A stretch of 31,192 nucleotides of DNA from a virus. The stretch covers positions 1 to 31,192 of IMG/VR virus record IMGVR_UViG_3300031772_009609. One strand, written 5' to 3'. Positions 3,044 through 31,192 of the stretch are shown here, one piece after another. Numbering within the stretch: position 1 is the first letter of the stretch; each line of letters begins with the position of its first letter. The notes beneath the pieces are model-generated. The model searched no databases. It worked only from the letters and a program-made list of their open reading frames with translations, and was not told the DNA's origin. The translations under genes and the position numbers were made by a program.

Positions 3044-3053
3044 GGATGGATCG

Positions 3054-4802: not shown

Positions 4803-4803
4803 C

Positions 4804-6138: not shown

Positions 6139-6146
6139 GGATAGGG

Positions 6147-10334: not shown

Positions 10335-10336
10335 AA

Positions 10337-10576: not shown

Positions 10577-10577
10577 A

Positions 10578-12491: not shown

Positions 12492-12504
12492 AAAGAAAGG
12501 AAAA

Positions 12505-12720: not shown

Positions 12721-12725
12721 ACTCG
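12705..12725 (+). repeat. Heptamer array, 3 units
   Basis: The units aaatcat, caatcat and aaactcg are followed by the AAAGGA ribosome site of the next gene. The array provides the stop codon of the preceding small gene. Confidence 0.75.
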
Positions 12726-12736
12726 AAAGGATTCGC

Positions 12737-13696: not shown

Positions 13697-13722
13697 GATT
13701 CTTCCAGACTCTGGAAGAATCT
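13696..13722. repeat. 27-bp perfect palindrome
   Basis: AGATTCTTCCAGA - C - TCTGGAAGAATCT has 13-base arms around one central base. It starts on the last base of a stop codon. It could be an operator for a dimeric regulator or an RNA hairpin; T-rich sequence (13739 onward) follows only 16 bases later, so it is not a standard terminator. Confidence 0.8.
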
Positions 13723-13818
13723 GAACGGTCAGGCAACATTTTTCCCTTTTTCCTCTTGCTAAGGATGGGTAGATTGCCGAAATTATAAACAGTGACAACT
13801 GAGTCTTGAGTTTTCTTC

Positions 13819-13862
13819 GGGGCCGTGCAGGGCGAAAGCATCTGCGCGGCCCCCTGTTTTTT
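13819..13862 (+). terminator. Strong intrinsic terminator
   Basis: GGGGCCGTGCAG (13819-13830) pairs with CTGCGCGGCCCC (13842-13853) through one G-U pair. The loop can close further as GC-GAAA-GC. CTGTTTTTT follows. This should end transcription of the packaging operon before the portal region. Confidence 0.8.
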
Positions 13863-13914
13863 AGGGCAACGGCTGTGCAGAGCTGCACCTCGAGCACGGC
13901 GCGTTGCCCTTTTT
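13863..13914 (+). terminator. Second, branched intrinsic terminator
   Basis: AGGGCAACG (13863-13871) pairs with CGTTGCCCT (13902-13910), followed by a T run (13910-13914). Inside is another perfect small hairpin, GTGCAG-AG-CTGCAC (13875-13888). It directly abuts the preceding terminator. Confidence 0.7.
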
Positions 13915-13928
13915 GTTGAGATGATGAC

Positions 13929-14198
13929 ATGGCTCTGACGAGCGCCAGCACGTTGACCGACGCCTTGAACCAGTACAAGGATAATCTCGTCTGGTGGGGC
14001 AGCGCCGCGGCGGCCGCGAATCTCTTGGCGGCGGTCCTGTACCTCTTGGCCTGCAAGCCCGAGACGATTGCGGCGGCGGATCAGAACGTCAACTTCGCGT
14101 CCCTGGAATCGTTGCGGGTGCGGCTCGAAAAGGAAGTGGTGAATCTGAGCTCGGCAGCCAATCGCGTCTCGTTCACGAGTGGAAAGATGTTGATGTAG
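13929..14198 (+). CDS. Small head-completion/connector-region protein (gpW position)
   Basis: It lies between terminase and portal, the place of gpW in lambda. The 89-residue protein begins MALTSASTLTDALNQYKDNL, has a helical alanine-rich stretch that could be hydrophobic packing (AAAAANLLAAVLYLLA), then SLESLRVRLEKEVVNLSS and a short strand VSFTSG near the end, as gpW ends in a strand followed by a tail. The sequence similarity is weak, so the call is mainly positional. The ribosome site is poor (TTGAG), as for several genes here. It ends one base before the portal gene. Confidence 0.5.
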   Translation: MALTSASTLTDALNQYKDNLVWWGSAAAAANLLAAVLYLLACKPETIAAADQNVNFASLESLRVRLEKEVVNLSSAANRVSFTSGKMLM

Positions 14199-14199
14199 T

Positions 14200-17104: not shown

Positions 17105-17139
17105 CCGAACCGTGACTCTTCCGCTCGAAAGGGGCAGCG

Positions 17140-17796
17140 ATGTCCGAGCAAACGAATGGCACGATGGGATTTCCGGTAGCCGCTGCGGTGACCGCGTTTC
17201 GGCGGGTCAAGATCGATGCGGCGGGCCGGGTTGCGCACGCCGGCGCGAGCGATTATGGCATCGGCGTGGCCCAAACCGCCCAGGCGACGGTTGGCTTTCA
17301 GGTGGCGGTTCGTTCCTGGCATGAGGGCACGGTCATCATCGAGGCGTCCGGCGTCATCGCGGCGGGTGACGAGGCCTACGCCGCCTCGAATGGCCGGATC
17401 GCCGCCACGGGAACGCTGAAAATCGGCACGGTCTATACGGCGGCCGCCGCGGCGGGCAGCGTGGTCGAGGTCTTTCCGCATCTGAGGCTTCTGCAATCTT
17501 CGAGCAGCTCCTCGTCTTCGAGCAGCTCCTCCTCGTCAAGCAGTTCCTCGTCCTCGAGCAGCTTCTCGTCCTCGAGCAGTTCCTCGTCCTCGAGCAGCTC
17601 CTCGTCATCGAGCAGTTCCTCGTCTTCGAGCAGCTCCTCGTCGTCAAGCAGTTCCTCGTCCTCGAGCAGTTCCTCGTCCTCGAGCAGCTCCTCGTCATCG
17701 AGCAGTTCCTCGTCCTCGAGCAGTTCCTCGTCCTCGAGCCTCTCGGTTTCGAGTTCCTCCAACAGTCTATCATCGAGCAGCTCATCGTCGAGCTGA
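17140..17796 (+). CDS. Capsid decoration protein (DUF2190-like) with long poly-serine tail
   Basis: Residues 1-118 follow the pattern of small trimeric decoration proteins that stabilise the capsid (DUF2190/gpD role): VTAFRRVKIDAAGRVAHAGASDYGIGVAQ, then EGTVIIEASGVIAAGDEAYAA and GTLKIGTVYTAAAAAGSVVEV. The remaining about 100 residues are almost pure serine with a few Phe, Leu, Val and Asn, encoded by 18-bp repeats. Such a tail would project from the capsid surface if the family topology holds. It lies between scaffold and major capsid genes, where lambda D is found. A close paralogue follows. Confidence 0.8.
   Translation: MSEQTNGTMGFPVAAAVTAFRRVKIDAAGRVAHAGASDYGIGVAQTAQATVGFQVAVRSWHEGTVIIEASGVIAAGDEAYAASNGRIAATGTLKIGTVYTAAAAAGSVVEVFPHLRLLQSSSSSSSSSSSSSSSSSSSSSSFSSSSSSSSSSSSSSSSSSSSSSSSSSSSSSSSSSSSSSSSSSSSSSSSSSSSSSSSSSLSVSSSSNSLSSSSSSSS
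17500..17733 (+). repeat. Minisatellite, 13 units of 18 bp, coding poly-serine
   Basis: Thirteen consecutive 18-base units of the form TCGAGCAGYTCCTCGTCN run from 17500 to 17733, each encoding six serines. Units differ at a few positions (for example TCAAGCAG in units 3 and 9). This is typical of a tract that grows and shrinks by slippage or recombination. Confidence 0.95.
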
Positions 17797-17823
17797 GTCC
17801 TCTAAGGAAAAGGAGAATTTCAC

Positions 17824-18204
17824 ATGGCAGAACAAAGAGATTGGCCGGTGGCATTGCCAGCCGCTGCCGCGGTTACCGCCTTTCGGCGGGTGCGTTTGAA
17901 TGCGGCGGGCCGGGTTTCGCACGCGGGCGCGAAGGATTACGGCATTGGCGTGGCCCAATCCGCCCAGGCGACGGTGGGTAAGGACGTCACGGTGCGGGGC
18001 TACGATGAGGGGACGGTAAAAATCGAGACGTCCAGTCTCATCCTGGCCGGCAAGCGAGTCTATGCCTCCGCCGGCGGCTGTGTGGCGGCGACGGGAACGG
18101 TCCTGATCGGAACGGCCTACAAGGGCGCCACGGCCAGCGGATCGATCATCGAGGTCATCGTGCACCGGGGCCTGCTGCAGTCATCCAGCAGCTCCTCGTG
18201 GTAA
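17824..18204 (+). CDS. Second capsid decoration protein (paralogue), short serine tail
   Basis: Residues 1-118 align closely with the preceding decoration protein, with shared blocks VTAFRR, NAAGRVSHAGAKDYGIGVAQ and ATVG. It ends LLQSSSSSSW, so the same LLQS junction leads to only six serines instead of about 90. This is a tandem duplication with a tail of different length. Two copies may allow mixed decoration of the capsid. AAGGAGAA upstream of ATG 17824 is a good ribosome site. Confidence 0.8.
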   Translation: MAEQRDWPVALPAAAAVTAFRRVRLNAAGRVSHAGAKDYGIGVAQSAQATVGKDVTVRGYDEGTVKIETSSLILAGKRVYASAGGCVAATGTVLIGTAYKGATASGSIIEVIVHRGLLQSSSSSSW

Positions 18205-18229
18205 GGGCCGGTTGAAGAACATCGCCAGA

Positions 18230-18285
18230 GGGGGCGCGCACGAAGGCTCGCCCCCAACGAAAGGAATCCTCCGCCTGCGGCGGAG
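18230..18285 (+). promoter_or_regulatory. Two hairpins before the major capsid gene
   Basis: GGGGGCG (18230-18236) pairs with CGCCCCC (18249-18255). CTCCGCC-TGC-GGCGGAG (18269-18285) follows. The second is bracketed by two copies of GAAAGGAAT, the downstream one being the capsid gene's ribosome site. They may tune mRNA stability or translation of the most abundant protein, or the second may be a mobile palindromic repeat. No T run follows either stem. Confidence 0.5.
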
Positions 18286-18306
18286 TCTACGGAAAGGAAT
18301 GTCATC

Positions 18307-19266
18307 ATGGGAGTACAGTACACGGGTTACAGCACGCCGCGCGAGGATCTGGGCATGGCGCTGCACGAATTCGATCCTTCGAGCCAGGGCTTGATCGCGA
18401 CGCAGGTCCTGCCGATCCGGCCGGTGAGGAAACAGGCGGCCAATTTCAGCATGATCTCCCGCGAGAACATGAAAAACGCGGAGCGGGTCAAGCGCGCCGC
18501 CGGCAGTGCGTTCGCCCGCGTGCACATGCGGGCGGAGGACCTGGCTTACGCCTGCGAGCTCTACGGCCTGGAGGCCCCGCTCGCCGACGAGGATCGGGAC
18601 AATTACGAGGACGATTTCAACGCCGAGTTGGAGCTGACGCAGTTGATCAACCTCCTCCTGCTGCTCGATCTGGAGATCGAGGTCGAGGCGATGGTCTTCA
18701 ATACGACCACGTGGACGGGCACGGGTCTCTACGTGGACCACTACGCCGCCCCCTGGGACGCCGCGGCCACGGACATCATCGCCCAGGCCGAGGAGGCCAA
18801 GGAGTATGTCCGCCAGAACTGCGGCCTGCCGGCCAACGCCCTGATCGTCTCCGCCAAGACGCTCTCGAACATGCGGCTGAACACGGGGATCAAGGGCGCC
18901 TTCCCGGGAATCCCCACGTTGACCTACTCGGCCCTGATCGGCAATCTGCCGGGCATTCTCGGCATCGAACGGATCATTGTGGGCGGCCAGGTCTACGACA
19001 CGGCGGACGAAGGGCAGACCTCCACGATGGCGGATATCTGGCCGGACGATTACGCGATGTTCGCCCGCCTCAACGGCCCAGCCGACAGTCTCTGGTCGCC
19101 CGGCCTGGGTCGGACGATGGCCTGGCGGGTGGGGTCCTCCGATCTGGTCGCGACCGACCAGTACCGGGAGGAGCAGACGAAATCGGACATCTTCCGCGTG
19201 GAACACGCGCTCGATCCGCTGATCCTCAACAAGTATTGCGGGTTCCTCATCAAGATCGACGCGTAA
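18307..19266 (+). CDS. Major capsid protein, lambda gpE-like
   Basis: This forms the icosahedral shell (HK97 fold, gpE family). Supporting blocks are VLPIRPVRKQAANFSMISREN near the N-terminus, the ELELTQLINLLLLLDLEIEVEAMVFN spine-helix region, ANALIVSAKTLSNMRLN, and a C-terminal GSSDLVATDQYREEQTKSDIFRVEHA...LILNKYCGFLI typical of the family. At 319 residues it is close to lambda gpE (341). GGAAAGGAAT precedes ATG 18307. It follows the decoration genes in lambda order. Confidence 0.93.
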   Translation: MGVQYTGYSTPREDLGMALHEFDPSSQGLIATQVLPIRPVRKQAANFSMISRENMKNAERVKRAAGSAFARVHMRAEDLAYACELYGLEAPLADEDRDNYEDDFNAELELTQLINLLLLLDLEIEVEAMVFNTTTWTGTGLYVDHYAAPWDAAATDIIAQAEEAKEYVRQNCGLPANALIVSAKTLSNMRLNTGIKGAFPGIPTLTYSALIGNLPGILGIERIIVGGQVYDTADEGQTSTMADIWPDDYAMFARLNGPADSLWSPGLGRTMAWRVGSSDLVATDQYREEQTKSDIFRVEHALDPLILNKYCGFLIKIDA

Positions 19267-19302
19267 CGTCAGTCCCTCCGGGACGAATCGATCGGAGCAG
19301 CC

Positions 19303-19554
19303 GTGGAGTTTTTGGAGATTTTAGCTATGCCGCCTAATCTCGAAGACTGGTTGGCCAGTCCGGTCACCCAGGCGGTGATCGAGCAGATTGCCGCCAAGGT
19401 TACGCAGCAGGTGATCGAACAGCACATTCAATGCTGTCCCCACGGTCGATTGCTGCTCAAGGGCCGTTCCTTGCTCGTCGGACTCTGTATCGGCAGCGGG
19501 GTCGCGGGCGGCGGGGTTTCCGCCCTGGTGCTCAAGGTATTGACGGGGGTGTGA
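19303..19554 (+). CDS. Small protein with C-terminal hydrophobic segment
   Basis: GTG 19303 has GGAG a few bases upstream; ATG 19327, with GGAG 10 bases upstream, is an alternative start. The first half is helical (MPPNLEDWLASPVTQAVIEQIAAKVTQQVIEQ) and the last 25 residues (LLVGLCIGSGVAGGGVSALVL) look like a membrane or buried glycine-rich helix. It lies where lambda has FI, but no similarity is evident. Function unknown. Confidence 0.5.
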   Translation: MEFLEILAMPPNLEDWLASPVTQAVIEQIAAKVTQQVIEQHIQCCPHGRLLLKGRSLLVGLCIGSGVAGGGVSALVLKVLTGV

Positions 19555-19556
19555 TC

Positions 19557-19895
19557 ATGACGGATTTCGCGGCCGCGATGGATCTGGCCGCCGAGGCGGC
19601 GTGGGTGAGTTTGGACGTCGAGTCCATCACCTACACGCCGGCCGGCGGCGCCGGTCTGGTCCGTTCCGCCCTCGTGCGCCGTCTGGCGCCCCAGGAGATT
19701 TCGGGCCTGGGCCGGGCCCCGGAGGCGATGGTCACGCTGCGGAACCAGGCCGCTGCCGGCCGCCTGAGCTCCGTGGTGGACACCGGCGGAGACACGATCT
19801 CGTGGTCCCCGAAGCGCGGCGGAACGGCGAAGGTCTCCCGCGTGCTGGAAATCGTTTCCGCGAACGGCGGTTTCGTGACGGTCCTGATCGGCTGA
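19557..19895 (+). CDS. Head-tail joining protein (FII-like position)
   Basis: ATG 19557 is chosen because it follows the preceding stop by 2 bases; the frame is open further upstream within the previous gene. The 112-residue protein starts with an amphipathic helix (MTDFAAAMDLAAEAAW), then beta strands (ESITYTPAGGAGLVRSALVRR) and ends with GFVTVLIG. This helix-plus-beta-barrel layout and its place after the capsid gene suit a lambda FII-type head-tail adaptor. Sequence similarity alone is not decisive. Confidence 0.55.
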   Translation: MTDFAAAMDLAAEAAWVSLDVESITYTPAGGAGLVRSALVRRLAPQEISGLGRAPEAMVTLRNQAAAGRLSSVVDTGGDTISWSPKRGGTAKVSRVLEIVSANGGFVTVLIG

Positions 19896-19897
19896 GT

Positions 19898-19925
19898 GGA
19901 ATTTCGGATTGCGGATTTCGGATTT
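19898..19925 (-). repeat. Heptamer array, 4 units (minus orientation)
   Basis: On the + strand the units read ggaattt, cggattg, cggattt and cggattt; the complement is the aaatccg type found at 16558. The array occupies the gap between the FII-like and Z-like genes. Confidence 0.85.
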
Positions 19926-19928
19926 GGA

Positions 19929-20555
19929 ATGGCTGGTAGTGCACTACTGACGGTTCGAGTCGATCGTGCAGGGTTGCAGACCATGGCCCGGCAAGTGGCG
20001 GGCCTGCGCGGCGGTCTCGCCCGGGTGGTTCCGGCGGCGCTCAATCGTACGGCCGCCTGGACCCGCACGCGGCAGCGCCGGGAGGTGGCCAGTCAATGCC
20101 GCATCAAGGTTCGGGCGGCGGACCGGCTCCTGCGGACCGACAAGGCGAGTTCCGCCAAGTGGAACGCCCAGTGCGAGATCCTCAATCGCCGGGTTGGGAT
20201 CGGCAAATTCCTGGCCGGGGCCCGCCGCAGCACCACGGCGATGTTCCCCAGCGGCCTAGTGATACAGTATCCCCGACATTTTGCAGCCACCATGCCGAGC
20301 GGGCATCGGGGCCTGTTCGTGAGGGCGCGGGTCGTCAAGCCGGGGATCAGTATTCGCCGCCCTCAGCGCACGACGGCCGGCAAACACGGTGGGTATACGT
20401 ACCGGACCGAGTTGCCGATCTACGAGCAGCGCGAGCGGCTCGGCGTCGTGATGCAGCTCGATTGGATGGCCGCTCTCCAGGACGCCGGGGCGGCCCAACT
20501 GCAAAAAGAGATCGATTCGAAGATCGCCTGGCTGACGGCGAAAGGAAAAGGGTAA
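19929..20555 (+). CDS. Minor tail protein, lambda Z-like
   Basis: The frame begins at GTG 19896, but its first codons would be the heptamer array, so ATG 19929 is preferred (208 aa). The protein is strongly basic and helical (LTVRVDRAGLQTMARQVAGLRGGLARVVPAALNRTAAWTRTRQRR), the typical start of gpZ/prophage minor tail Z proteins. It is followed by a beta-rich middle and the ending LQKEIDSKIAWLTAKGKG. In lambda gpZ (192 aa) has the same place before U and is needed for tail completion. Confidence 0.7.
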   Translation: MAGSALLTVRVDRAGLQTMARQVAGLRGGLARVVPAALNRTAAWTRTRQRREVASQCRIKVRAADRLLRTDKASSAKWNAQCEILNRRVGIGKFLAGARRSTTAMFPSGLVIQYPRHFAATMPSGHRGLFVRARVVKPGISIRRPQRTTAGKHGGYTYRTELPIYEQRERLGVVMQLDWMAALQDAGAAQLQKEIDSKIAWLTAKGKG

Positions 20556-20557
20556 TC

Positions 20558-21028
20558 ATGGCGGCATCGCGGCGGGAACAGATTTCCGAATGGCTCCGGG
20601 CCGAGGTGGCGAAGATCGCCGGGGTCACGGCCCTGCGTCCCAAGCGAGTTTTCTGGACCGAGGAGCTGACGAAGGACTTGACGGCGGTGATCCGGCAGCG
20701 GTCCTGCCGGATCGTGCACGCGGATGAGACGGATCTGGCCTTCGAGCAGGGGTACAAGATCACCGTGGCCGTGATCGACCGGGACACGGCGACGGCCCCA
20801 CTCGATACCCGGATCAATCTCGTGATGGCTGCCGTAATCAAGGCCCTGGCGGCGGACCCCTCCTGCGGCGGTCTGGCGGGTTCGAATGGGATGGTCCTGG
20901 AGGAGATCGTGTCGCTCCAGGAGGACAATAGTGAGCCGGTTTCGCCGGGTCTCACGGGCGAAAGTCTGCTGATGCGGGTTCATTTTTCCACGTTGAAAAC
21001 GAATCTCAGCGCCGCGGGCGGCGTCTGA
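20558..21028 (+). CDS. Tail terminator protein (gpU position)
   Basis: ATG 20558, with AAAGGAAAAGGG just upstream, gives 156 residues; the longer open frame upstream is inside the Z-like gene. It starts REQISEWLRAEVAKIAGV, contains strand segments and MAAVIKALAADPSCGGL, and ends with MRVHFSTLKTNLS, like tail-completion proteins that end in a long strand (gpU or HK97 gp10 relatives). The assignment rests on this pattern and on lying directly before the tail tube gene. The acidic stretch VSLQEDNSEPVSPG precedes the last strand. Confidence 0.65.
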   Translation: MAASRREQISEWLRAEVAKIAGVTALRPKRVFWTEELTKDLTAVIRQRSCRIVHADETDLAFEQGYKITVAVIDRDTATAPLDTRINLVMAAVIKALAADPSCGGLAGSNGMVLEEIVSLQEDNSEPVSPGLTGESLLMRVHFSTLKTNLSAAGGV

Positions 21029-21043
21029 CGAAAGGAGTTTCGC

Positions 21044-21463
21044 ATGATCGGTAAAGGCGCGACGCTGACCGGCTCGGTGACGGGTTTGGTCGGCCACATT
21101 CGCAATATCAATTTCGAGGGCACCAAGGTCGACAATCTCGACAACACGGACGGGGACACCCCGGGCTATCACCGGACGTTCGAGCCGGGCCTGATCGACT
21201 CCGGCCGGTTCACCTGCGAGGTCCTGTACGACGCGACCTACGCCTGGGGCGTCCTGACGGCGTTGAAGAACCGCGTGACGGAATGCTGGAAGGTCCAGTT
21301 CGCCGACGGCCGCCGCCGGTGGTTCTGGGGCTATCCCGACGATAGTTCGCTCTCAGGTCCCTACGACGCCCTGGTCAGTTACAATTTCGGCATCAAGATC
21401 ACCGGGGCGATCACGAGCAGCTCCTCGAGCAGTTTGTCGAGCAGCTCTTCGTCCTCAGCCTAA
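21044..21463 (+). CDS. Tail tube protein with poly-serine C-terminus
   Basis: GAAAGGAG precedes ATG 21044. The 139-residue protein is beta-rich (GKGATLTGSVTGLVGHIRNINFEG ... DSGRFTCEVLYDATYAW ... DALVSYNFGIKITGAI), matching the shape of siphovirus tail tube proteins. It is placed between tail terminator and the G/G-T chaperones as in lambda V. The last 15 residues are serine-rich (SSSSSSLSSSSSSSA), in the position where lambda V carries an extra surface-exposed C-terminal domain. The serine tail thus probably decorates the tail exterior. Confidence 0.75.
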   Translation: MIGKGATLTGSVTGLVGHIRNINFEGTKVDNLDNTDGDTPGYHRTFEPGLIDSGRFTCEVLYDATYAWGVLTALKNRVTECWKVQFADGRRRWFWGYPDDSSLSGPYDALVSYNFGIKITGAITSSSSSSLSSSSSSSA

Positions 21464-21490
21464 ACCTCACGCAGCATAGGAGAAACGAAT

Positions 21491-21859
21491 ATGGTCCTGA
21501 CCCGCGAGCGCATTTTGACGTATCAGAAGCTCAAGCAAAAGAAGGTTGATTTCCCGGAGATGGGAGGCGAGCTGCTCTTTCAGGAGATGTCGGCGGATGC
21601 CTGGGAGGATTTCGACCGCAAGACCCCGAATTATTCCCTGCGGCTGTTCATCGCCGGGGCGATCGATGAGAAGGGTCTACGTCTCTTCCGGGACGAAGAC
21701 GTCAATCTCCTGGCCGGCAAAGGCGCCCACCTGATCGAGAAGGGGGCCCGGGCGGTCCTGGAGCTGTGCGGCGTCCTGCCGGAGAGTGAGCCGGAGATCC
21801 TAAAAAACTCCAAGCCGATCCCGCCCGCGCCCAAGAGTGGCGCATCGCCCTCGGTTTAG
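21491..21859 (+). CDS. Tail assembly chaperone G
   Basis: A 122-residue product starts at ATG 21491, after GGAGAAACG. It lies directly before the tape measure region, the place of lambda G. The helical chaperone-like body (LLFQEMSADAWEDFDRK ... LIEKGARAVLELCGVL) is followed by a Pro/Lys-rich tail. The tail begins at the slippery sequence, so unshifted ribosomes add LKNSKPIPPAPKSGASPSV and stop, whereas shifted ribosomes continue into the T frame. Such chaperones coat the tape measure protein during tail assembly. Confidence 0.8.
   Translation: MVLTRERILTYQKLKQKKVDFPEMGGELLFQEMSADAWEDFDRKTPNYSLRLFIAGAIDEKGLRLFRDEDVNLLAGKGAHLIEKGARAVLELCGVLPESEPEILKNSKPIPPAPKSGASPSV
21802..21808 (+). promoter_or_regulatory. 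Programmed -1 ribosomal frameshift site A AAA AAC
   Basis: In the G reading frame the codons are CTA AAA AAC, giving the canonical X XXY YYZ heptamer A AAA AAC at 21802-21808. A -1 shift here enters the open frame that codes for the T domain. A short stem GCGCC...GGCGC (21827-21843) lies 18 bases downstream and may stimulate slippage, though it is weak. Confidence 0.85.
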
Positions 21860-22128
21860 GCCGGACCCGGGCGGAGCTGCTGGCGGGCGTCACGTGCTCG
21901 GAGCTGGCGACGTTGCGGGTTCTCGACGGGGTCCGGGCTTTCGGAGAACGCCGGGCGGATCTACGGGCCGCGAAACTGACGATGCATCTGGTGGCATGCC
22001 TGCGGTCGAGCAAAAGCGGCGTCGTACATCTGGAGGAGTTTCTCCTGCGGCATCTGGACGATCCGGAGCCGGAGACGGAAGACTCCGATACGGCCGACCG
22101 GTTCGACGCCCAGGCCGGTCTGGTTTGA
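21808..22128 (+). CDS. T domain of the G-T frameshift fusion
   Basis: Read only after the -1 shift, starting LQADPARAQEWRIALGLGRT from base 21808 and ending at 22128. The segment EWRIALGLGRTRAELLAGVTCSELATLRVLD has the conserved W...LG.T..EL......SEL pattern of phage tail-assembly T domains, which binds the tail tube protein. The last 60 residues are helical and end in an acidic tail (DDPEPETEDSD). There is no start codon with a ribosome site, which supports expression only as the fusion of about 209 residues. Confidence 0.8.
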   Translation, partial: LQADPARAQEWRIALGLGRTRAELLAGVTCSELATLRVLDGVRAFGERRADLRAAKLTMHLVACLRSSKSGVVHLEEFLLRHLDDPEPETEDSDTADRFDAQAGLV

Positions 22129-22163
22129 AAATCAAAAATCAAAGATCATAAATCACCAATGCT
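22129..22163 (+). repeat. Heptamer array, 4-5 units, abutting the tape measure start
   Basis: The units aaatcaa, aaatcaa, agatcat, aaatcac and caatgct end exactly where the tape measure ATG (22164) begins. No recognisable ribosome site stands between, so the array itself is the untranslated leader. Confidence 0.85.
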
Positions 22164-24377
22164 ATGGCCGACACCTGGCAAAAATCCGGCATCGAGTACA
22201 TCGTCAAGGACTCCACGGAGACCGGTACCGCCGCGGTTTTGCGGAGTCTACAGAGCATCGACAAAAATCTGCAGTCCGTCACGGGAAATCTGCAGTCCGT
22301 CACGGGAAAAATGAAGGGGGTGGCGGCGGAGAGCCGGGGCATTGGGGCGGAACTCAAAGCGTCCCTCGCGATCGGGGTGGGCTACCTGGGGATTTCCAAA
22401 CTGGTCAGCGGCTATCAGGAAGTCTCCCGGTCGATTTCTGATACGGCCAAGGCGGCGGACATCCTCCAGATCTCGACGGAGAGTCTCAGCGGCCTCCGCT
22501 ATGTGGCGGAGCAATCGGACGTCGCCGGCACGTCCCTCGACGCGATGATGGTGAAGTTCACCGCGTTCGCGTCGCGAGCCGTGCAAGGCTCCGCCTCAGC
22601 GCGTTACGCGTTGCAGCAACTGGGACTCAGTGGGGAGGAATTGACGCGGATCCGGCCGGATGAATCGCTGCTGAGATTGGCGGACGCTTTTCAAAAGATC
22701 CGGGACCCCGCGGACCGGGTGCGGCTGGCGCTGGAAATCTTCGGGCGTACCGGCACCGCCGGCACGCAGATGATCGAGATCCTCGCCCTGGGCAGCGCCG
22801 GGATCAAGACGATGACGGATCGTTTCCGGGCCCTGGGCGGGGAAGTGACGCGGGTGGACGTGGAAAAGGTCCGCCAGGCGAACGCCGCTCTCAAAGACGT
22901 CAAGACGATCCTGGGGGCGATTCGGAAGGAGATCGTGATCCAGGTGGCGCCTTACGTCGCCGCCCTGGCGGGCGGTCTCGCGGACGCCGCGGCGGCCGGC
23001 GGCGGGTTTGGGGCGACGGTGACGAACGCGATGGAATCGGTCGCGGTGGCGGCGGCCACGGTGCTGGATATCCTCATTAAGATCGAGAACCTCAAGAACT
23101 CGGTGGCCCTCCACGCCTATGACGTCGCGTTCGAGAAAGATGTTTTCGCGCAAACGAAAGAGATCTACGCGGGTCAGATGAAGCGGGAGGGAAAGAAGCC
23201 TTGGGGCATGTTCGATCGGGGCGGTGTCCTATACCCGCCTCGCTGGTCCCAAGCCGAAGAAATCGTCCGCCGGGATTTGACGCCTGCCTACGAGGCGGGC
23301 CGCAGGCCGCTGGTTCAGGAAACGAATAACGCCGCCCAGGTCCAGACGTATTTTGGCCAACTCCGTCAACGGGCCCAGGGGCTGAGCGAACAGGCGGAGA
23401 TCAAGACCCGGATCACGGAATATGGCCGGAATCCGGAGGCCGGCTCGAATCTGCCTTCATCGATGCCGACCGTGCAGGAGCTCCAAGACGCTGAGCAGGC
23501 GCTCGAAGACGAAGAGAAAGCGGTCGAGCGGGCGGCGAATGGGATGCAGAGGCTGCGGGACCGGGTCGAGGACATGGACGCGGCGATCCAGACGGAGATC
23601 GAGGTGGTCCGCCGCGCCGGGGACGCGCACGGCAAGCTCGGCGAGATCGTGCGCTATGAGATGACGGTCCGGGCCGCCTACGGCGACGATCTGGACTTGG
23701 TGACGCGTAAGTTGGAGGAGCATCGCCGGCAATTGGAGTTGCTGGCCCGGGTGGATTTCTCGAACAAGTCGTTCGATGATCTCGGCCAGAGTCTGACGGA
23801 CCTCGTGTTCGATTTCCAAAACGCCGCGAAGTACGCGGAGCAATTCTTCAACACCCTCGCCCGCCGGGCCGTAAATGAGATGATCATGCAGCCCTTCATG
23901 GCCGCCCTCAAGCCGGGGGTCGCTGCGTTATTCAGTGGCGGCGGCGGCATGACGAGTGAGGGAATGGCCACGGTGGCGAGATATCACGATGGCGGGACGG
24001 TGGGCGCCGTGCCGGAGACCCGGTATCTGCCGGTCGGGGCGGCGGACCGGTATCTGGCGTCGAATGAGCGGTTGATCGTGGCCCGGGTGGGTGAGGAGGT
24101 CCTGACGAAGCAGGAGTCCCGCCGGCGGCGGGTCTCGGTCTATCATGAGGGCGGCGTGGTCGGGGAAGGGGGTTCGAGCGTTGCGGCTTCGGGCAATGCG
24201 GGCCAGCCCTCGCAGGTCCAGGTGCGGATCAGCAACCCGCCGGGCAGTCCGCTGGAGGCGACGGGCGCCGAGATCTCCTTCGACGGTCCCACGATGATCG
24301 TCGGCGTGATCCTCGACAACATCCGGCGGGGCGGCGTGATGCGGGACCAGATCCGCATGACGGCGCGGGGAGGATAG
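22164..24377 (+). CDS. Tape measure protein (gpH-like)
   Basis: This 737-residue protein sets tail length and is ejected with DNA. Position right after G/G-T and composition support it: a helical N-terminus (residues 1-75), a conserved-looking block SISDTAKAADILQISTESLSGLRYVAEQSDVAG (about 90-122) typical of tape measures, a hydrophobic stretch near 265-315, a coiled-coil segment (about 430-535), and a glycine-rich C-terminus (KPGVAALFSGGGG ... YHDGGTVGAVPETRYLPVG) seen in many family members. A rule of about 0.15 nm per residue would give a tail near 110 nm. Residues 35-48 are an exact tandem duplication (LQSVTGN/LQSVTGK). Confidence 0.9.
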   Translation: MADTWQKSGIEYIVKDSTETGTAAVLRSLQSIDKNLQSVTGNLQSVTGKMKGVAAESRGIGAELKASLAIGVGYLGISKLVSGYQEVSRSISDTAKAADILQISTESLSGLRYVAEQSDVAGTSLDAMMVKFTAFASRAVQGSASARYALQQLGLSGEELTRIRPDESLLRLADAFQKIRDPADRVRLALEIFGRTGTAGTQMIEILALGSAGIKTMTDRFRALGGEVTRVDVEKVRQANAALKDVKTILGAIRKEIVIQVAPYVAALAGGLADAAAAGGGFGATVTNAMESVAVAAATVLDILIKIENLKNSVALHAYDVAFEKDVFAQTKEIYAGQMKREGKKPWGMFDRGGVLYPPRWSQAEEIVRRDLTPAYEAGRRPLVQETNNAAQVQTYFGQLRQRAQGLSEQAEIKTRITEYGRNPEAGSNLPSSMPTVQELQDAEQALEDEEKAVERAANGMQRLRDRVEDMDAAIQTEIEVVRRAGDAHGKLGEIVRYEMTVRAAYGDDLDLVTRKLEEHRRQLELLARVDFSNKSFDDLGQSLTDLVFDFQNAAKYAEQFFNTLARRAVNEMIMQPFMAALKPGVAALFSGGGGMTSEGMATVARYHDGGTVGAVPETRYLPVGAADRYLASNERLIVARVGEEVLTKQESRRRRVSVYHEGGVVGEGGSSVAASGNAGQPSQVQVRISNPPGSPLEATGAEISFDGPTMIVGVILDNIRRGGVMRDQIRMTARGG
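22266..22307 (+). repeat. 21-bp tandem duplication in the tape measure gene
   Basis: A 21-base unit (22266-22286) is repeated exactly at 22287-22307, adding seven residues (LQSVTG plus N/K) in frame near the N-terminus. The identity suggests a recent event. Confidence 0.9.
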
Positions 24378-24379
24378 GG

Positions 24380-25396
24380 ATGTCCACTTTGCGCGAAAAT
24401 TGGATCTATGATGGCGCCGCTTATACGGAAGTCGGAGGAACGGCCTGGCGGGCGCAAAGCTTCCTATGTGGCTATGCGACGCCCTGGCAGGCCTATCAAG
24501 TGACATCGATCCAATTGCGGGGCTATGCGTATCAATCTTCGGGTGATTTTACAGTAGGGATTTATTCGTCCGTGTCGGGAAAACCGGGCTCTTTATTGAT
24601 TTCCAAAACGGTGTCCAAATCCTCTCTGCCTTCCGGTTCTTCCAATTGGTTTGAAATCACGTTTGACGATCCCTATCTGTTAACGTTGAACTCCGTTTAT
24701 CATATCGTCTCCTCGGCCAGTAGTGGAACGGTACGCCTGCAAGATCAAAATGGTTACAGTGGCGGGTCCTTTGCCTATTCCTCGGATGGAGGAAGTTCTT
24801 GGACTGTCAGCGGCACAATTGATATGGTATTTGCAGTTTGGGGTATCGAGCCGTTTTCATCCTCCTCCAGCTCCAGTAGTTCCTCTTTTTCTTCGTCCAG
24901 CTCCTCTTCCTCCTCCAGTCTCAGCAGTTCCTCCTCTTCGAGTTCGCTGTCCTCCAGTTCGAGTTCGCTATCCTCCAGTTCGAGCAGCAGTTTCAGCGTG
25001 GATTTCCCGGTCTTGACCCGGGCCTCCGCCCGCGGTTTTCCGGCGGAGTTCGTGATCGATCCGGGCGTGGTCACGGCCGCGCTGGGGATCGGCCGGCCCC
25101 GGGTGCGCCGGGAATTTCAGGATGCGTTTCGCGGCTGGCGGGACCAGCGGACGAATTGCAGCGCCGCCGATTACGCCGCCTTCGAGATCTTCTATCGGGA
25201 GACCGTTCAACGTAGCGTCCGGCCCTTCCGCTGGCGCAATCCCCGCACGCGGGAGCGGGTCGTGGTGCGGTTTTGGTTTCGGGAGCCGCCCCGCTGGCAG
25301 CGGGTGGCGGAGCATCAGGTCGAATGGACCGTGGATTTCACGCTGGCCGAATGCGCCGGGGCGACGGGGGTTGGGTATGGAGGAGCGGACGCGTGA
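24380..25396 (+). CDS. Chimeric minor tail protein: adhesin-like domain, poly-serine linker, gpM-like domain
   Basis: GGGGAGGATAGGG precedes ATG 24380. Residues 1-158 form a beta-sandwich-like domain (RAQSFLCGY ... VTSIQLRGYAYQSSGDFTVGIYSS ... KPGSLLISKTV ... YHIVSS) resembling choice-of-anchor/carbohydrate-binding sandwiches. Residues about 159-206 are poly-serine. Residues 207-338 (VVTAALGIGRPRVRREFQDAFRGWR ... RPFRWRNPRTRERVVVRFW ... VEWTVDFTL) resemble lambda gpM-type minor tail proteins. The first 480 bases are visibly AT-richer than neighbours, suggesting a captured domain. It lies directly after the tape measure gene, in lambda M position, at the tail tip. Confidence 0.7.
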   Translation: MSTLRENWIYDGAAYTEVGGTAWRAQSFLCGYATPWQAYQVTSIQLRGYAYQSSGDFTVGIYSSVSGKPGSLLISKTVSKSSLPSGSSNWFEITFDDPYLLTLNSVYHIVSSASSGTVRLQDQNGYSGGSFAYSSDGGSSWTVSGTIDMVFAVWGIEPFSSSSSSSSSSFSSSSSSSSSSLSSSSSSSSLSSSSSSLSSSSSSSFSVDFPVLTRASARGFPAEFVIDPGVVTAALGIGRPRVRREFQDAFRGWRDQRTNCSAADYAAFEIFYRETVQRSVRPFRWRNPRTRERVVVRFWFREPPRWQRVAEHQVEWTVDFTLAECAGATGVGYGGADA

Positions 25397-25413
25397 AATA
25401 TGACCTTAGAAGT

Positions 25414-25435
25414 GGGAGGCGGGCCGTGGCCCGCC
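25414..25435. repeat. GC-rich palindrome with candidate GTG start in its centre
   Basis: GGCGGGCC-GT-GGCCCGCC (25418-25435) is a perfect inverted repeat. GGGAGG (25414-25419) and GTG 25426 make a possible ribosome site and alternative start for the gpL-like gene, which would be hidden in the stem. Confidence 0.6.
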
Positions 25436-25444
25436 GGACTCTTG

Positions 25445-25479
25445 AAATCAACAAACGACAATCAGAAATCAAAAATGCC
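25445..25479 (+). repeat. Heptamer array, 5 units, abutting the gpL-like start
   Basis: The units aaatcaa, caaacga, caatcag, aaatcaa and aaatgcc end directly at ATG 25480, as at the tape measure gene. Confidence 0.8.
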
Positions 25480-26325
25480 ATGAAACAGATCCCGGATCTC
25501 ATCCTGCGGCGGCTGAAGGAGTTGGAGACGTCCGAGCCGTTCATCTCGCTCTTGGACGTCGCGCTCAATGACCTGGCCGATACGCACATCCGCCTGGCCC
25601 GCGACACCCGCCTGATCACGTTCGGCGGGGTCGACTACGTGCCCGCCGCCTTCGACCTGCAGGTCCTGGGCGTGACCAAGCGGGAGGGGATTCCGCAGTT
25701 CGATCTGGCGATCAGCGACGTGGAAGATCGTTTGCGGCCGGCGTTGTATACGTCGAACTATTTCCAGGGCGCGACCCTGACGATTGCCGTCGTCATGCCG
25801 GACGCCCTCTCGCTCGATTACCAGGATCTAGTGACGGAGTACAGCATTCTCAAGGCGCGCCCGCGGGCCGAATGGGTGTACCTGACGATCGGGGGTCCGG
25901 ACCTGCTGCGTAAGCGTTTTCCCTGGGGCCGGTTCTTCGCGGACCTGTGCGAGTACCGGTTCGGGGACGATCCCCGTTGCCCCTATGTCCCCTCGAATAT
26001 CGTCGCGGTGGACCACTCCGGCTCGGGGCCCGTGACGGTGACGGTGACGGACCATCCCTTCGAGACCGGGGACGAGGTGACGCTGGCGGGCGGGGCGGGC
26101 CTGACGCCGCCCTTGGCGGGCACGTTCGTGGTCACGGACATCGGGGATGACGCGTTCACGCTGGACGATACGAGCGGCGATGATTACACGGGCACGTACT
26201 CCGAGAGCGGCACGGCCGCCTTCACGATCTGCGAGCGGAACCTGGACGCCTGCCGCAAGCGGGCGGCGACGCTGCATTTCTGGGGCTGCGTGGGTCTCCG
26301 CAACCGGGTGTCCCGTTTGGCTTGA
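25480..26325 (+). CDS. Minor tail protein L-like with iron-sulfur cysteines and inserted beta domain
   Basis: ATG 25480 follows a heptamer array with no ribosome site; GTG 25426 after GGGAGG is an alternative. The N-terminal two thirds match the gpL-type tail tip protein (FISLLDVALNDLADTHIRL ... LITFGGVDYVPAAFDLQVLGVTKREG). C157-x9-C167 and C251-x6-C258 correspond to the four ligands of the [4Fe-4S] cluster of lambda gpL. Between the second and third Cys lies about 80 residues of beta-rich sequence (GPVTVTVTDHPFETGDEVTLAGG ... GTFVVTDIGDDAFTLDD), resembling the E1-FCCH-like repeats found in phage proteins; lambda has only 22 residues there. Confidence 0.75.
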   Translation: MKQIPDLILRRLKELETSEPFISLLDVALNDLADTHIRLARDTRLITFGGVDYVPAAFDLQVLGVTKREGIPQFDLAISDVEDRLRPALYTSNYFQGATLTIAVVMPDALSLDYQDLVTEYSILKARPRAEWVYLTIGGPDLLRKRFPWGRFFADLCEYRFGDDPRCPYVPSNIVAVDHSGSGPVTVTVTDHPFETGDEVTLAGGAGLTPPLAGTFVVTDIGDDAFTLDDTSGDDYTGTYSESGTAAFTICERNLDACRKRAATLHFWGCVGLRNRVSRLA

Positions 26326-26327
26326 AA

Positions 26328-29300
26328 ATGATACATCAAACGTCAAACGTCAAACGTCAAACTTCCGGCAATTGCTGGCGGCTCGTGCAGGAGACGCGGC
26401 GGGCGGCCGGATTGCCGATGCCGGATCAGGCCACGTGGCTGACGGCCCTGGTTCGCAACTCGGCCCCGGCGGTCCGGTTCGTCCGTCTCGCCGCCCCGCA
26501 GCTCTACGCCATCGTCGCGCTCAAAACCGGGGAATACGTCACGCATCTCGGCGTCGTGCTGTCCCCGCGGGAGTTTCTCCATGACGGCGGCGCCGGGCCC
26601 CAGGTGGAACGGATCGAAGTGTGGATCCCCCGGATCGAGGGTTTCTACGAGTTCGGCGATTGGCCGCTCCCGCCTGCTGGGTATCCGATCGCGGCGGTGG
26701 GGGCGCCGGGGTCCCTGGTGATCCTCACGAATCCTCTGACCGGCGCCTGCCGCACGGCGTGGGGGGATGCCCAGGGCGGCAGTGTGGCCCAGTGGCTGGC
26801 CCGGGAGGATGTGCCGGCGGGGGCGGTCTGTCTCTTGAATGGGACGCCGTTGTCTCCCGAACATTGGTCCTATCGGCCCGGTCCCCGGGATCGGCTGCAG
26901 GTCCTGATCCCGATCGGCAACAATAATCAGATGCTGGGCATCATGCTGATGGTGATGCTGGCCGTAGTCTCTTATGGCGTCGGGGCCTACGTCGGCGGGG
27001 CCGCCGGCCTAGGGATGGGCGCGGGCTGGGGGGCGGCGGCCAGTGCCGGAATCATGATCGGTGGCTCGCTGCTGCTCAATGCCCTGCTCGCCCCCGGCGT
27101 CCCGGATACCACCAAAGACGAAGTGAAATCGCAATGGGGCGAGCAGACGGTCCAGGCCCAGGGGGGGGCGGTCCCCAAAATCTATGGGGACGTCCGAGTC
27201 CACGGCAACATCATCGCCCACTACAGCGAGCAACTCGGGGTGGAAGTGCACGGCGGCTTCCTAGCGCGCATGCCGGAGGAACATATCCGCAACGTCCTGG
27301 TGTGTTTCGGTGAAGATCCGGTGGAAGGTTTCGACGAGTCGTCACTGCGGATCAACGATGTGGCGATTGCGGAGCTGCCCGGCGTGGCGGTCGAATACCG
27401 GCGGGGACTCCTCGATCAGACGGCGATGAGTAAATTCGCCACGGAGACCCCGATCGAGTTCTTTGCCGGATACGTGCTCGACTATGAGACGAACACCCGG
27501 ACGTACACCCTGCCGGGCGTCGGCTATGATGACGCCGAGGTGACGGTTCTATTCACGAATGGTTTATGGTCGCTGGATCAAAAAAAAGGAACGATGAAAT
27601 GGCAGGTTGCCACCCTCAAGGTCGAGGCGGGGGACGCGTTGACGGATACCTGGCAAACCATTCTGTATCGGACGGAGACTCACAACAACACCAACCCCGT
27701 GCGCTTCAATTACCGCGCCAGCGGCTGGGTGTACCCCGGATTACCGGGGAAACAACACTATATAGGCGGTGCGATTTTCACGATCACGCGGGCGATGCAG
27801 CCCCGTTTTCGGGTTACGCGGATCGATCCGGCCTATCAGGGGATCAGTTGGGGCGGCGACTGCATGATCGCGGAGGTCCGGGGGATCTTGAATGAGGTCT
27901 TCGAGCATCCCGGCAAGGTCCTGTTGCAGATCAGCGCCCTGCCCTCGAAGATGCTCTCCGGCTCCCTCGACGTCAGCATCGTGGTGAACGGTTCCATCCT
28001 GCAGCGGTGGGACGGCGCCGCCTGGGTGCTGGACGCGGTCAAGTCGCGAAACCCGGCCTGGATCGATTATGACATCCTGACCTATCCCCTGATCAGCGGC
28101 GATGGCGATGGAACGCCCTACGCCGTCGCGAAGTACAGGGGCGTCGATCCCGCCGACCTCGATGTGGCGGGTTTCCTGGCGACGGAGACGCTGGCGGATG
28201 GTCAGGTCCCCGACGGCCAGGGCGGCGCTGGGCTGGAGAATCGGATCGAGATCGGTACGGTCTTCGGGGAGACGAGCAACGCCTACGACGCGGTCCGGCG
28301 GATCGGCGTGACGGGCCGGGCGGGTCTCGATCTGCGGGGCAATCGGGTAGGACTCTGGTGTGACCGGGCCCGCGTGCCGGTGGGCCTGTTCGGCGACGGC
28401 AATTGGCTCAAGGACTCCTGGGAGCCGGACCCGATCCCGCAGGCGGACCGGGCGGCGGAACTGGAGATCGTCTATTACGACCGGGACAACGGGGACGAGC
28501 AGACGCCGATCTTAGTGCCGGATCTGGACATCGACACGACGAATCGCTCCTCGATCGATTGCGCGTGCACCCGGCGGCGGAGCGAGGCCTGGCGGACGGG
28601 CCGGTACAACCTCGCCCGCAATCGCCTGCTGGATCTCGCGGGCAAGTTCTCGACGGATATTGACGGGATCATTTACGAGCCGGGCGACGTGCTGTACCTC
28701 CAGTTGCCGGGCCGGTCCTGGGGCGGACGCCTGGCGGCGGTGGATTCCGGCGCGGGTACGGTCACCCTGGATCAAGACGTCCAGACGTCCGCGAATGACG
28801 TTCTGATCGTCCAGGTCCGCGATTCGGTGACGGGCGTCCAGGCGGCCGGATATCGGATCGTGGCCTCGCGCGCCGGGCGCGTGGTGACGTTCAGCGGCGC
28901 CTGGGTTTTCCCGGCGGGCGTGACGGCGGCGGCGGCCCCGGACGATCCATATCTATTCGGCCCCGTCGCGATCCTGACGGACATCTTCGAGGTCCTGGAT
29001 GTCTCGCCGCAGGCGCACCTGCAGTTCACGCTCTCGGTGCTGCGCTACGCCGCCGGCGTCTATACGGTCGATGACGAGGAGTCGGGCCTGTCGATCGATT
29101 CCGGCTTGGCGGTAGATCCTATCCCGGCCGGGCCGCCGCGGCCCCCGACTGCGGCGACTATCGCGGGCTATTTGCCGCCTGGCGTCCAGAGTTCAGGGCA
29201 GGCCCCGGAAATCGAAATCCTCGGACTCGCCGTTACGGGCGACGCCGCCACGACGATCTATTGGGACGCGGGGCTGATCACGATTGGCGCCTCGGAATAT

Positions 29301-29903
29301 GAGATCGCCGCCGGGTCCACGACGGATGAATACGTATGGTTCGATCCGGGGGCTCCGGACCCTCTGACCCTGAAGACCGGCGCGGTTTGGGGTGGCGCCG
29401 GCACGTACAAGATGTTCGCCAACCAGGCCGGGCGGCCCGATCCATTCTATGCGCCGTTGGCGGCGCTGGGGATCGAGATTTCGGGTCTGGGCGTGACGGG
29501 GGACGGCGACGATACGATCGATTGGCTGGCGGGGCAGATTTCCTATCGCGGGCACGATTATTCGATCGGCGCGGGGTCCACGACGGATAAATACGTCTGG
29601 TTCGATCCGGAGGCCGCCGATCCTTTGACGCTGAAGACCGGCGCCGCGTGGCCGGAGGACCCGGATATCTACAAGATGTTCATCAATACGGCCGGCGCGG
29701 CGACGGGGTTCTACGGCCAGGCCTCGGCCACGGAGCCGGTGACCGTGGTAGACAGCACGTCGCTCGATCTGACCCTGGCCGGGCAAGAGCTGAGCGGCGC
29801 CGTCCTGGCGGGCGGTGGCTTTATCGACGTGACGTTCGACGGCGGGACCTCGAACGTAGGGCTGGACACGGATTTCAGTTTCGATGCGGGGTATAGTCTA
29901 TGA
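26328..29903 (+). CDS. Fused K-I-J-like tail tip protein, 1192 aa
   Basis: Three lambda functions seem to be in one chain. Residues about 14-90 look like an NlpC/P60 peptidase (C16 in NCWRLV, H73 in VTHLGVVL, H85), the K role. Residues about 90-210 end in VCLLNGTPLSPEHWSYRPGPRDRLQVLIPIG, an I-type pattern, followed by a glycine-rich hydrophobic region (211-262). From about 275 (QAQGGAVPKIYGDVRVHGNIIAHYSEQLG) the J-type central fibre/baseplate hub begins. The C-terminal 230 residues hold two about 88-residue repeats. Starts at ATG 26328 or TTG 26322. The JAMM domain of lambda K is not seen. Confidence 0.75.
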   Translation: MIHQTSNVKRQTSGNCWRLVQETRRAAGLPMPDQATWLTALVRNSAPAVRFVRLAAPQLYAIVALKTGEYVTHLGVVLSPREFLHDGGAGPQVERIEVWIPRIEGFYEFGDWPLPPAGYPIAAVGAPGSLVILTNPLTGACRTAWGDAQGGSVAQWLAREDVPAGAVCLLNGTPLSPEHWSYRPGPRDRLQVLIPIGNNNQMLGIMLMVMLAVVSYGVGAYVGGAAGLGMGAGWGAAASAGIMIGGSLLLNALLAPGVPDTTKDEVKSQWGEQTVQAQGGAVPKIYGDVRVHGNIIAHYSEQLGVEVHGGFLARMPEEHIRNVLVCFGEDPVEGFDESSLRINDVAIAELPGVAVEYRRGLLDQTAMSKFATETPIEFFAGYVLDYETNTRTYTLPGVGYDDAEVTVLFTNGLWSLDQKKGTMKWQVATLKVEAGDALTDTWQTILYRTETHNNTNPVRFNYRASGWVYPGLPGKQHYIGGAIFTITRAMQPRFRVTRIDPAYQGISWGGDCMIAEVRGILNEVFEHPGKVLLQISALPSKMLSGSLDVSIVVNGSILQRWDGAAWVLDAVKSRNPAWIDYDILTYPLISGDGDGTPYAVAKYRGVDPADLDVAGFLATETLADGQVPDGQGGAGLENRIEIGTVFGETSNAYDAVRRIGVTGRAGLDLRGNRVGLWCDRARVPVGLFGDGNWLKDSWEPDPIPQADRAAELEIVYYDRDNGDEQTPILVPDLDIDTTNRSSIDCACTRRRSEAWRTGRYNLARNRLLDLAGKFSTDIDGIIYEPGDVLYLQLPGRSWGGRLAAVDSGAGTVTLDQDVQTSANDVLIVQVRDSVTGVQAAGYRIVASRAGRVVTFSGAWVFPAGVTAAAAPDDPYLFGPVAILTDIFEVLDVSPQAHLQFTLSVLRYAAGVYTVDDEESGLSIDSGLAVDPIPAGPPRPPTAATIAGYLPPGVQSSGQAPEIEILGLAVTGDAATTIYWDAGLITIGASEYEIAAGSTTDEYVWFDPGAPDPLTLKTGAVWGGAGTYKMFANQAGRPDPFYAPLAALGIEISGLGVTGDGDDTIDWLAGQISYRGHDYSIGAGSTTDKYVWFDPEAADPLTLKTGAAWPEDPDIYKMFINTAGAATGFYGQASATEPVTVVDSTSLDLTLAGQELSGAVLAGGGFIDVTFDGGTSNVGLDTDFSFDAGYSL
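26334..26361 (+). repeat. Heptamer array, 4 units, translated at the start of the fused tail protein
   Basis: catcaaa is followed by three exact cgtcaaa units. It encodes residues 3-12 (HQTSNVKRQT) of the fused protein, so here the array is part of the coding region unless translation starts further on. Confidence 0.85.
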
Positions 29904-31192
29904 GCACGCGCTGGCAATGCAAACGGGATACGGCGGCGAATTGGACCTCGAATAATCCAGTCCTCCTGTCCGGGGAATGGGGTGTGGAAACGGATACGAA
30001 GAAATTGAAGATGGGAGACGGCGCCACCGCGTGGAACGGTCTCGCCTATGATTTCTCACCACAGAACAACGTGGCGATCACCGGCGGCTCCATCACGGGG
30101 ATCACCGATCTGGCCGTGGCGGACGGCGGCACGGGGGCCTCGACGCTGACGGATCACGGCATTCTCCTGGGATCGGGCACGGCCGCCGTGACGCCTCTGG
30201 CGGCCGCGACGAATGGGCAGATCCCGATCGGCAGCACGGGGGCCGATCCGGTCCTGGCCACGATTGCCGGCACGGCGGATGAGGTGGACGTCAGCGTCGG
30301 GGCCGGGACGATCACGATTGGCCTGGTGAATCCCCTGATCGCGGGCAAAGGCGGCACGGGGGCCTCGACGCTGACGGATCACGGCATTCTCCTGGGATCG
30401 GGCACGGACGCCGTGACGCCTCTGGCGGCCGCGACGAATGGGCAGATCCCGATCGGCAGCACGGGGGCCGATCCGGTCCTGGCCACGATTGCCGGCACGG
30501 CCAATCAAATTGTCGTGACCAACGGGGCCGGGACCAGCACGATCGGGACTCCGTTACTCGCCGGGAATGAGCCGGTACGACAGGTGATTCACGGTGGGGT
30601 GGCGACCATCCATGCCGGCAACAATGGATGGGGGCAGGGTAGACCGCCGAATTCCAAGATCACGCAGAGTGCCGCGATTGCCGGGACACGAACCACGGCG
30701 CAAATCTTCACCCGCACGACGGGAACGTGGACCGCAGATGTCTTGATTGCTCAATATGCCTTCTTCTACGCGGCAGCGGCCCCGTCCGTGGGCAACTGGC
30801 TGCCCATCGTGGATAATGACGGCACAACCTTGACCGTGACCGGAACGATCCTGGCGGCAGCGAATACGGTAAAAACCTGCATATGGAATCCGATTCAACG
30901 AACCTACGCCCACGGGCAAGGGGTTGGTGCGTTCGCCGACGGTTTCTTCGATGGTCAGAACGGGTGGCTGGTGCCCTTCAGTTTCGCGAACCTGGTCAAA
31001 GTAAATCCGGCTGATGGGACGATGACCTCCTATGCGCACGGCCAGGAGGCCGGCGCCTTCATGGGGAGTTTCTTTGACGGTCAAAACGGGTGGCTGGTGC
31101 CCTCGAATTCCGCCAATCTGGTCAAGGTCAATCCGGCCGATGGGACAATGACTTCCTACGCCCACGGGCAAGGGGCCTATGCGTTCATCGGC
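29900..31192 (+). CDS. Tail fibre / receptor-binding protein, cut by the window edge
   Basis: ATG 29900 overlaps the preceding stop (ATGA), and the frame stays open for 431 codons to the window end. The N-terminus (WQCKRDTAANWTSNNPVLLSGEWGVETDTKKLKMGDGATAWNGLAY) is the fibre-attachment pattern seen in major-tropism-determinant-like and other tail fibres. Residues about 76-200 contain a nearly exact duplicated 75-residue shaft unit (GGTGASTLTDHGILLGSGT ...). From about residue 335 a 42-residue repeat starts (YAHGQ ... FFDGQNGWLVP ... ANLVKVNPADGTMTS), at least two full copies, probably beta-propeller blades for receptor binding. It continues beyond the window. Confidence 0.85.
   Translation, partial: MSTRWQCKRDTAANWTSNNPVLLSGEWGVETDTKKLKMGDGATAWNGLAYDFSPQNNVAITGGSITGITDLAVADGGTGASTLTDHGILLGSGTAAVTPLAAATNGQIPIGSTGADPVLATIAGTADEVDVSVGAGTITIGLVNPLIAGKGGTGASTLTDHGILLGSGTDAVTPLAAATNGQIPIGSTGADPVLATIAGTANQIVVTNGAGTSTIGTPLLAGNEPVRQVIHGGVATIHAGNNGWGQGRPPNSKITQSAAIAGTRTTAQIFTRTTGTWTADVLIAQYAFFYAAAAPSVGNWLPIVDNDGTTLTVTGTILAAANTVKTCIWNPIQRTYAHGQGVGAFADGFFDGQNGWLVPFSFANLVKVNPADGTMTSYAHGQEAGAFMGSFFDGQNGWLVPSNSANLVKVNPADGTMTSYAHGQGAYAFIG
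30125..30501 (+). repeat. 152-bp direct repeat in the fibre gene
   Basis: 30125-30276 and 30350-30501 are identical except for one base (C at 30183, A at 30408). The period of 225 bases equals 75 codons, so recombination between copies would add or remove one shaft unit in frame. Confidence 0.95.

Follow-up and report, generated by a model that had tools for sequence, protein, structure and literature searches.

The 338-aa product of the intact open reading frame at 24380-25396 is, judging from sequence and gene position, the distal tail protein of an uncultured phage and the analogue of lambda gpM, and this protein probably carries an accessory adhesin in the form of a swappable choice-of-anchor R module held on a serine tether. 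The window, i.e., the whole stretch of 31,192 nucleotides that was analysed, displays the gene order of a lambda-type siphophage according to the open reading frame list and family searches (Table 1). The gene consists of three parts, an N-terminal choice-of-anchor R domain, a 48-codon serine tract and a C-terminal distal-tail domain, and it is nearly unchanged in two further IMG/VR contigs (L002 and L003). Directly downstream, the protein in the gpL slot is 78% identical to its copies in relatives, and family profile searches returned no match to it over the cut-off. Two other features of the window were also observed. The region at 8641-9515 has the lowest GC content in the window (0.46) and is mostly without a clear long gene, and the segment 29900-31192, together with L021:3-1451, encodes a tail-fibre-like protein with long internal repeats, one reading TDHGILLGSGT... 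with a period of 225 and another of 126 bases (FFDGQNGWLVPS...).

Table 1. Features of the analysed window referred to in the text.
Feature	Position	Strand	Basis or remark
Whole window	1..31,192		IMG/VR virus record IMGVR_UViG_3300031772_009609, uncultured phage
Terminase	starts 10578		Window gene order
Portal	starts 14200		Window gene order
Protease	starts 15731		Window gene order
Cement (capsid decoration)-like protein	17140..17796	+	PF09956 E 6.8e-5, just under cut-off
Second cement protein	17824..18204	+	PF09956 E 4.1e-7, 30.8 bits against a cut-off of 24
Major head protein	starts 18307		Window gene order
Major tail (tube) protein	21044..21463	+	phrog_158 E 2e-7; C-terminal serine tail SSSSSSLSSSSSSSA
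Chaperone	starts 21491		Window gene order
Tape measure protein	22164..24377	+	phrog_9483 E 6e-40; directly 5' of the three-part gene
N-terminal domain, low GC	24380..24853	+	NF041539 match, residues 14-153; no counterpart in L006, L007 and L008
Poly-serine tract	24854..24997	+	48 codons, 42 Ser, six Ser codons; kept in domain-less relatives
Distal-tail (gpM-like, phrog_384) domain	24998..25393	+	phrog_384 E 3.2e-5
gpL-slot minor tail protein	25480..26325	+	Between gpM-slot gene and J; directly 3' of gpM-slot gene
J-like central tail fibre protein	26322..29903	+	phrog_31 E 3e-68

The direct match of the C-terminal domain to phrog_384 is weak, and Pfam gpM gave no match to the three-part protein in a Pfam search. 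The domain is tied to phrog_384 through the distant contig L037, the second copy of which matches with an E value of 9e-22. By hhalign, the family of the window aligned with the phrog_384 set at a probability of 97.9 and with lambda gpM and its relatives at probabilities of 64-78 (E about 2e-5 to 6e-5), while 60 column shuffles reached at most 3.2 and a reversed alignment 0.1. The gene slot between the tape measure gene and the gpL-like gene is common to the window, four cultured phages and lambda. The phrog_384-like genes of these cultured phages, which infect Rhodovulum, Nitrincola, Rhizobium and Bradyrhizobium, lie between the tape measure and minor tail genes and encode bare proteins of ~117 aa; L037 likewise has a bare 118-aa copy 3' of its tape measure gene. 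An AlphaFold2 model gave the C-terminal domain a beta-helix-beta-beta-beta secondary structure that fits the gpM pattern of a beta-sandwich with an E-loop and a single helix, with pLDDT below 50 in that region. Lambda gpM forms a hexameric distal tail ring (PMC10721106), and the tail domain in the window shares with it and with the phrog_384 branch of siphophage distal tail proteins the slot after the tape measure gene, the domain size and the profile similarity. Gene position and profile comparison bear out the M-type label that the first-pass annotation had given to this protein. Lambda gpM, at 109 aa, is unextended, as stated there, whereas about 206 residues precede the tail domain here. 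In L037, two tandem phrog_384 genes follow the tape measure gene (L037:1290-2095), and the second of them opens with an (SLGSG)n-type repeat linker, parallel to the serine linker.

Residues 14-153 of the N-terminal part match the NCBIfam choice-of-anchor R family NF041539 with 44.2 bits (E 1.9e-11; curated cut-off 30 bits), the alignment covering profile positions 10-152 of 155. This family takes its name from bacterial proteins that terminate in any of several surface anchors. The domain in the window is instead fused to a phage tail domain, which ends the protein (AECAGATGVGYGGADA), and the C-terminal cell-surface anchor signal is absent; the domain is a member of the choice-of-anchor R family, but the product as a whole does not belong to the anchored surface proteins. 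AlphaFold2 displayed a beta-sandwich both in the whole protein (mean pLDDT 44) and, only slightly better, in the N-terminal domain alone (mean pLDDT 54, pTM 0.61); the alignments were shallow, with two effectively independent sequences, and the whole-protein model is poor because of this. Together with the family match, these low-confidence models agree with the beta-sandwich-like domain proposed in the first-pass annotation, and an ordinary tail fold for the N-terminus, given the choice-of-anchor R match, is unsupported. The best match of the N-terminal domain model to the PDB by VIA-align was a porphyran-binding carbohydrate-binding module (CBM; Z 7.5, 3.6 A, 108 residues), and the same list holds several CBM6/15/36 domains and the Cwp84 lectin-like domain as well as the cellulose-synthase protein BcsB, Eph receptors, Cry toxins and lambda gpJ/tail tip, all with Z below 8, a level that may reflect only the common beta-sandwich arrangement. 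Foldseek comparison to viral predicted structures gave weak matches of mixed kinds, and a Pfam search of the three-part protein gave no match to CBM families. We know of no ligand for choice-of-anchor R. Glycan binding by the modelled domain is plausible and fits the fold comparison, and host binding is likewise plausible.

The composition of the N-terminal domain sets it apart from the rest of the gene. Residues 1-158 (474 bases) have a GC content of 0.50 and a GC3 of 0.52, while GC3 is 0.81 in the section that encodes the C-terminal part and 0.81-0.88 in the tape measure, gpL-like and J genes, confirming the compositional shift that had been pointed out for the first 480 bases. Among 433 windows of 158 codons taken from other genes, a single one equalled this GC3, and none was lower; the equal window is the N-terminus of ORF 20096, the start of which is uncertain.

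Comparison to relatives separated two clades, one with the domain (the window, L002 and L003) and one without it (L006, L007 and L008). In the latter, the C-terminal domain is about 77% identical and the gene order is the same, but the gene consists of MLM, poly-serine and the tail domain. DNA similarity runs to window position 24381 and resumes from 24965, with flank identities of 84% and 78% up to the borders of the missing domain, and ~50 residues of the serine tract are retained. We thus regard the domain as a presence/absence module, and the tract as independent of it. The first-pass annotation had named, as a finding that would refute its reading, relatives that all carry the same domain with matching composition; three relatives at ~77% identity are without it, an outcome in favour of that reading. 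Tandem arrays of varied sequence that repeat exactly every seven bases, mostly at gene boundaries, were observed in the window (6104-6137, 16555-16592 and 26331-26366), in L025 (10386-10422, 14970-15006 and 15614-15648) and in L027 (11562-11589, 12617-12648 and 18758-18784), and other tandem periods from 4 to 11 were almost absent from these three; the array at 14970-15006 of L025 stands in the place of the domain, before the start codon of the domain-less clade.

A graft unique to this gene is ruled out by a second gene built from the same three parts. In two nearly identical contigs, a second NF041539 match lies about 7 kb downstream, just past the end of the window, in a gene composed of a choice-of-anchor R domain (38.3 bits against a cut-off of 30), a serine tract and a tail domain. 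Its N-terminal domain is 32% identical to that of 24380-25396 and has a normal GC3 of 0.79. The second copy in the sister clade has a different, short N-terminus without a choice-of-anchor R domain. The C-terminal domains are about 40% identical between the two copies and 74-78% identical between the clades for each copy, which places the duplication before the divergence of the clades. Given their unlike composition, the two N-terminal domains more likely have separate histories.

Taken on sequence evidence, lineage-specific acquisition is favoured over loss, given that the sister relatives are without the domain, that distant members of the family are bare proteins of ~117 aa and that the domain is an outlier in composition; the domain is therefore seen as a swappable add-on that was most likely gained in this lineage. 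The first-pass annotation had proposed a recent capture, and what stands of this, with good support, is a foreign-looking module added in this lineage to a gpM-slot protein, while its recency drew no backing from the donor searches and is plausible. A search of annotated phages and plasmids with an E threshold of 0.01 gave no homologue of the N-terminal domain, nor did searches of genome contigs and of the other viral contigs, and beyond this phage group none of the donor searches turned up a close homologue. The L-shaped tail fibres of Klebsiella phages gave tblastn matches that stayed below the threshold (E 0.5-5) and were discarded. A scan of genomes with the C-terminal domain gave no match, and hence no host is named.

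An opposite history, in which the common ancestor had a choice-of-anchor R domain in both paralogues, the sister clade lost both, and relaxed or unusual codon use produced the low GC3, would account for the presence of the domain, 32% identical, in both paralogues of the clade that has it, and fits the C-terminal domains of the paralogues having split (40%) before the two clades did. We nevertheless regard it as rather improbable, as it requires two separate losses, the GC3 values of 0.79 and 0.52 point to differing recent histories for the two domains, and the extension is missing in outgroup members of the family. The domain might also be structural, a part of the tail-tip scaffold or of assembly with no role in adhesion. 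Tail proteins often bear Ig-like or beta-sandwich decorations with no known ligand, and lambda gpJ is among the fold matches. However, a presumably disordered tether of 48 residues would make a poor scaffold and the sister phages manage without the domain, leaving a structural role unlikely. For the reading that we prefer, an accessory adhesin on a distal tail protein, the following arrangement can be proposed. By analogy with gpM, the protein would form a hexameric ring between the tail tube and the tip, and the choice-of-anchor R-type beta-sandwich would hang N-terminally from this ring on the long flexible serine tether. Up to six tethered beta-sandwiches, a stoichiometry that we infer from the ring, would thus probably surround the tail end, where they are probably exposed at the surface, and through probable binding of a ligand they could contact the host surface weakly, ahead of the engagement of the J-type tip. 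The direction of change, from a bare to an extended protein, is likewise probable.

The serine linker of 48 residues described in the first-pass annotation is present as described, but its treatment there as a joint only is not borne out, as a tract of ~50 residues is kept in phages that have no domain to join and tracts also occur on cement and tube proteins and, in relatives, on J. The tract is not a simple microsatellite, because all six serine codons occur in it (TCC 16, AGT 9, TCG 6, AGC 6, TCT 4 and TCA 1), and a simple-repeat artefact is further ruled out by its identity in independent contigs. The cement-like protein ends in a poly-serine tail about 93 residues long, and the second cement protein ends in LLQSSSSSSW, a serine tail of 6 residues. 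The core of the major tail protein is 92% identical to that of relatives, whose copies bear the serine tail too. The tails on both cement-like proteins and on the major tail protein are common to both clades, and in the relatives only, serine tracts are also found on J, as a serine-rich C-terminal tail, and on a fibre protein. On the sense strand of the window, the open reading frames with serine tracts are structural genes only; the one other reading frame with a run of five serines is the antisense frame 7540-7824. Two relatives, one per clade, have a cluster of six genes directly 3' of the tail genes that is 74-87% identical between them and encodes two Methyltransf_24 proteins, a nucleotide-sugar epimerase (E 1.9e-41), a GT9-like protein, a fusion of GT9- and GT4-like domains and one protein without an assignment. 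This sugar-modification cluster is known from the relatives G002 and G005 only, in which the phage-encoded glycosyltransferases are a GT9 (E 7e-13; the GT9-like protein is just under the cut-off) and the GT9/GT4 fusion, and the window ends before the corresponding region. It was located at L024:9304-14913 and L027:13194-18752, and one member (L024:10499-11212), for which family searches were empty, is yet 87% identical between the clades.

Because serine tracts also occur on the cement and major tail proteins and a sugar cluster is present in relatives, the tract is more than the linker of this domain and may form a flexible and possibly O-glycosylated virion brush; tracts and cluster together give hints of glycosylation. 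Carried further, the tract itself would be the main feature, an O-glycosylated brush made by the phage's sugar cluster with the domain as an optional passenger. Arguments for this are the occurrence of tracts on both cement proteins, on the major and distal tail proteins and, among relatives, on J and a fibre protein, the use of all six serine codons, indicating selection at the protein level, the retention of the tract without the domain, and a cluster that immediately follows the tail genes in either clade, with 74-87% identity. There is also a precedent, in that one source (PMC12363180, citing Freeman 2023) reports that capsid and tail-tube proteins of mycobacteriophage virions are glycosylated by phage-encoded glycosyltransferases. 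On the other hand, the cluster lies beyond the end of the window and was found in relatives only, no enzyme in it was identified as having a known specificity for protein serine, and it could instead act on sugars of the host surface or on a polysaccharide of the tail. A survey of other contigs with poly-serine was also without a usable control. We consider a brush of this kind a serious contender, if somewhat short of an even chance. That it is virion-wide, glycosylated by the phage's own cluster, and that its tracts are sockets where adhesin-like domains are inserted or removed from one lineage to another is a more tentative proposal. In Che8, Corndog and Myrna, according to the same source (PMC12363180), the decorated proteins are likewise those of capsid and tail tube and the glycosyltransferases are phage encoded, but those virions are glycosylated, whereas here the case is built from serine tracts and the sugar cluster of relatives alone. 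In any event, the poly-serine merits attention at least equal to that given to the domain.

A pattern scan of viral contigs for poly-serine found many unrelated contigs (among them L048, L064, L071, L089, L102 and L111) encoding several proteins with serine tracts, which are C-terminal or internal and in some cases very long; virion proteins tailed with poly-serine may be widespread among uncultured phages. Choice-of-anchor R was found in 0 of 39 such contigs, and likewise in none of the control genomes at that threshold. GT2 was present in 11 of the 39; the control scan yielded a single contig, and we claim no association.

The proposed mechanism resembles that of distal tail proteins described as evolved in lactococcal phages. 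In lactococcal skunaviruses, a distal tail protein (Dit) enlarged by carbohydrate-binding insertions aids adsorption, and as in the present case the extra module is found in some relatives only (PMC10688798). The lactococcal modules are carbohydrate-binding insertions, whereas here a domain of another family with putative binding is fused N-terminally, through poly-serine, in a lambda-type tail. Until now, enlarged distal tail proteins were described chiefly in phages infecting lactic acid bacteria, where the enlargement is a carbohydrate-binding insertion, and the phage studied here adds a lambda-type case with another module, another joining device and a direct comparison of sister phages with and without the domain. 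Glycosylation of the serine tracts, if it occurs, would extend virion glycosylation from the mycobacteriophages in which it has been described to an unrelated group of uncultured phages, and its acceptor sequence would be visible from the genome alone and therefore searchable.
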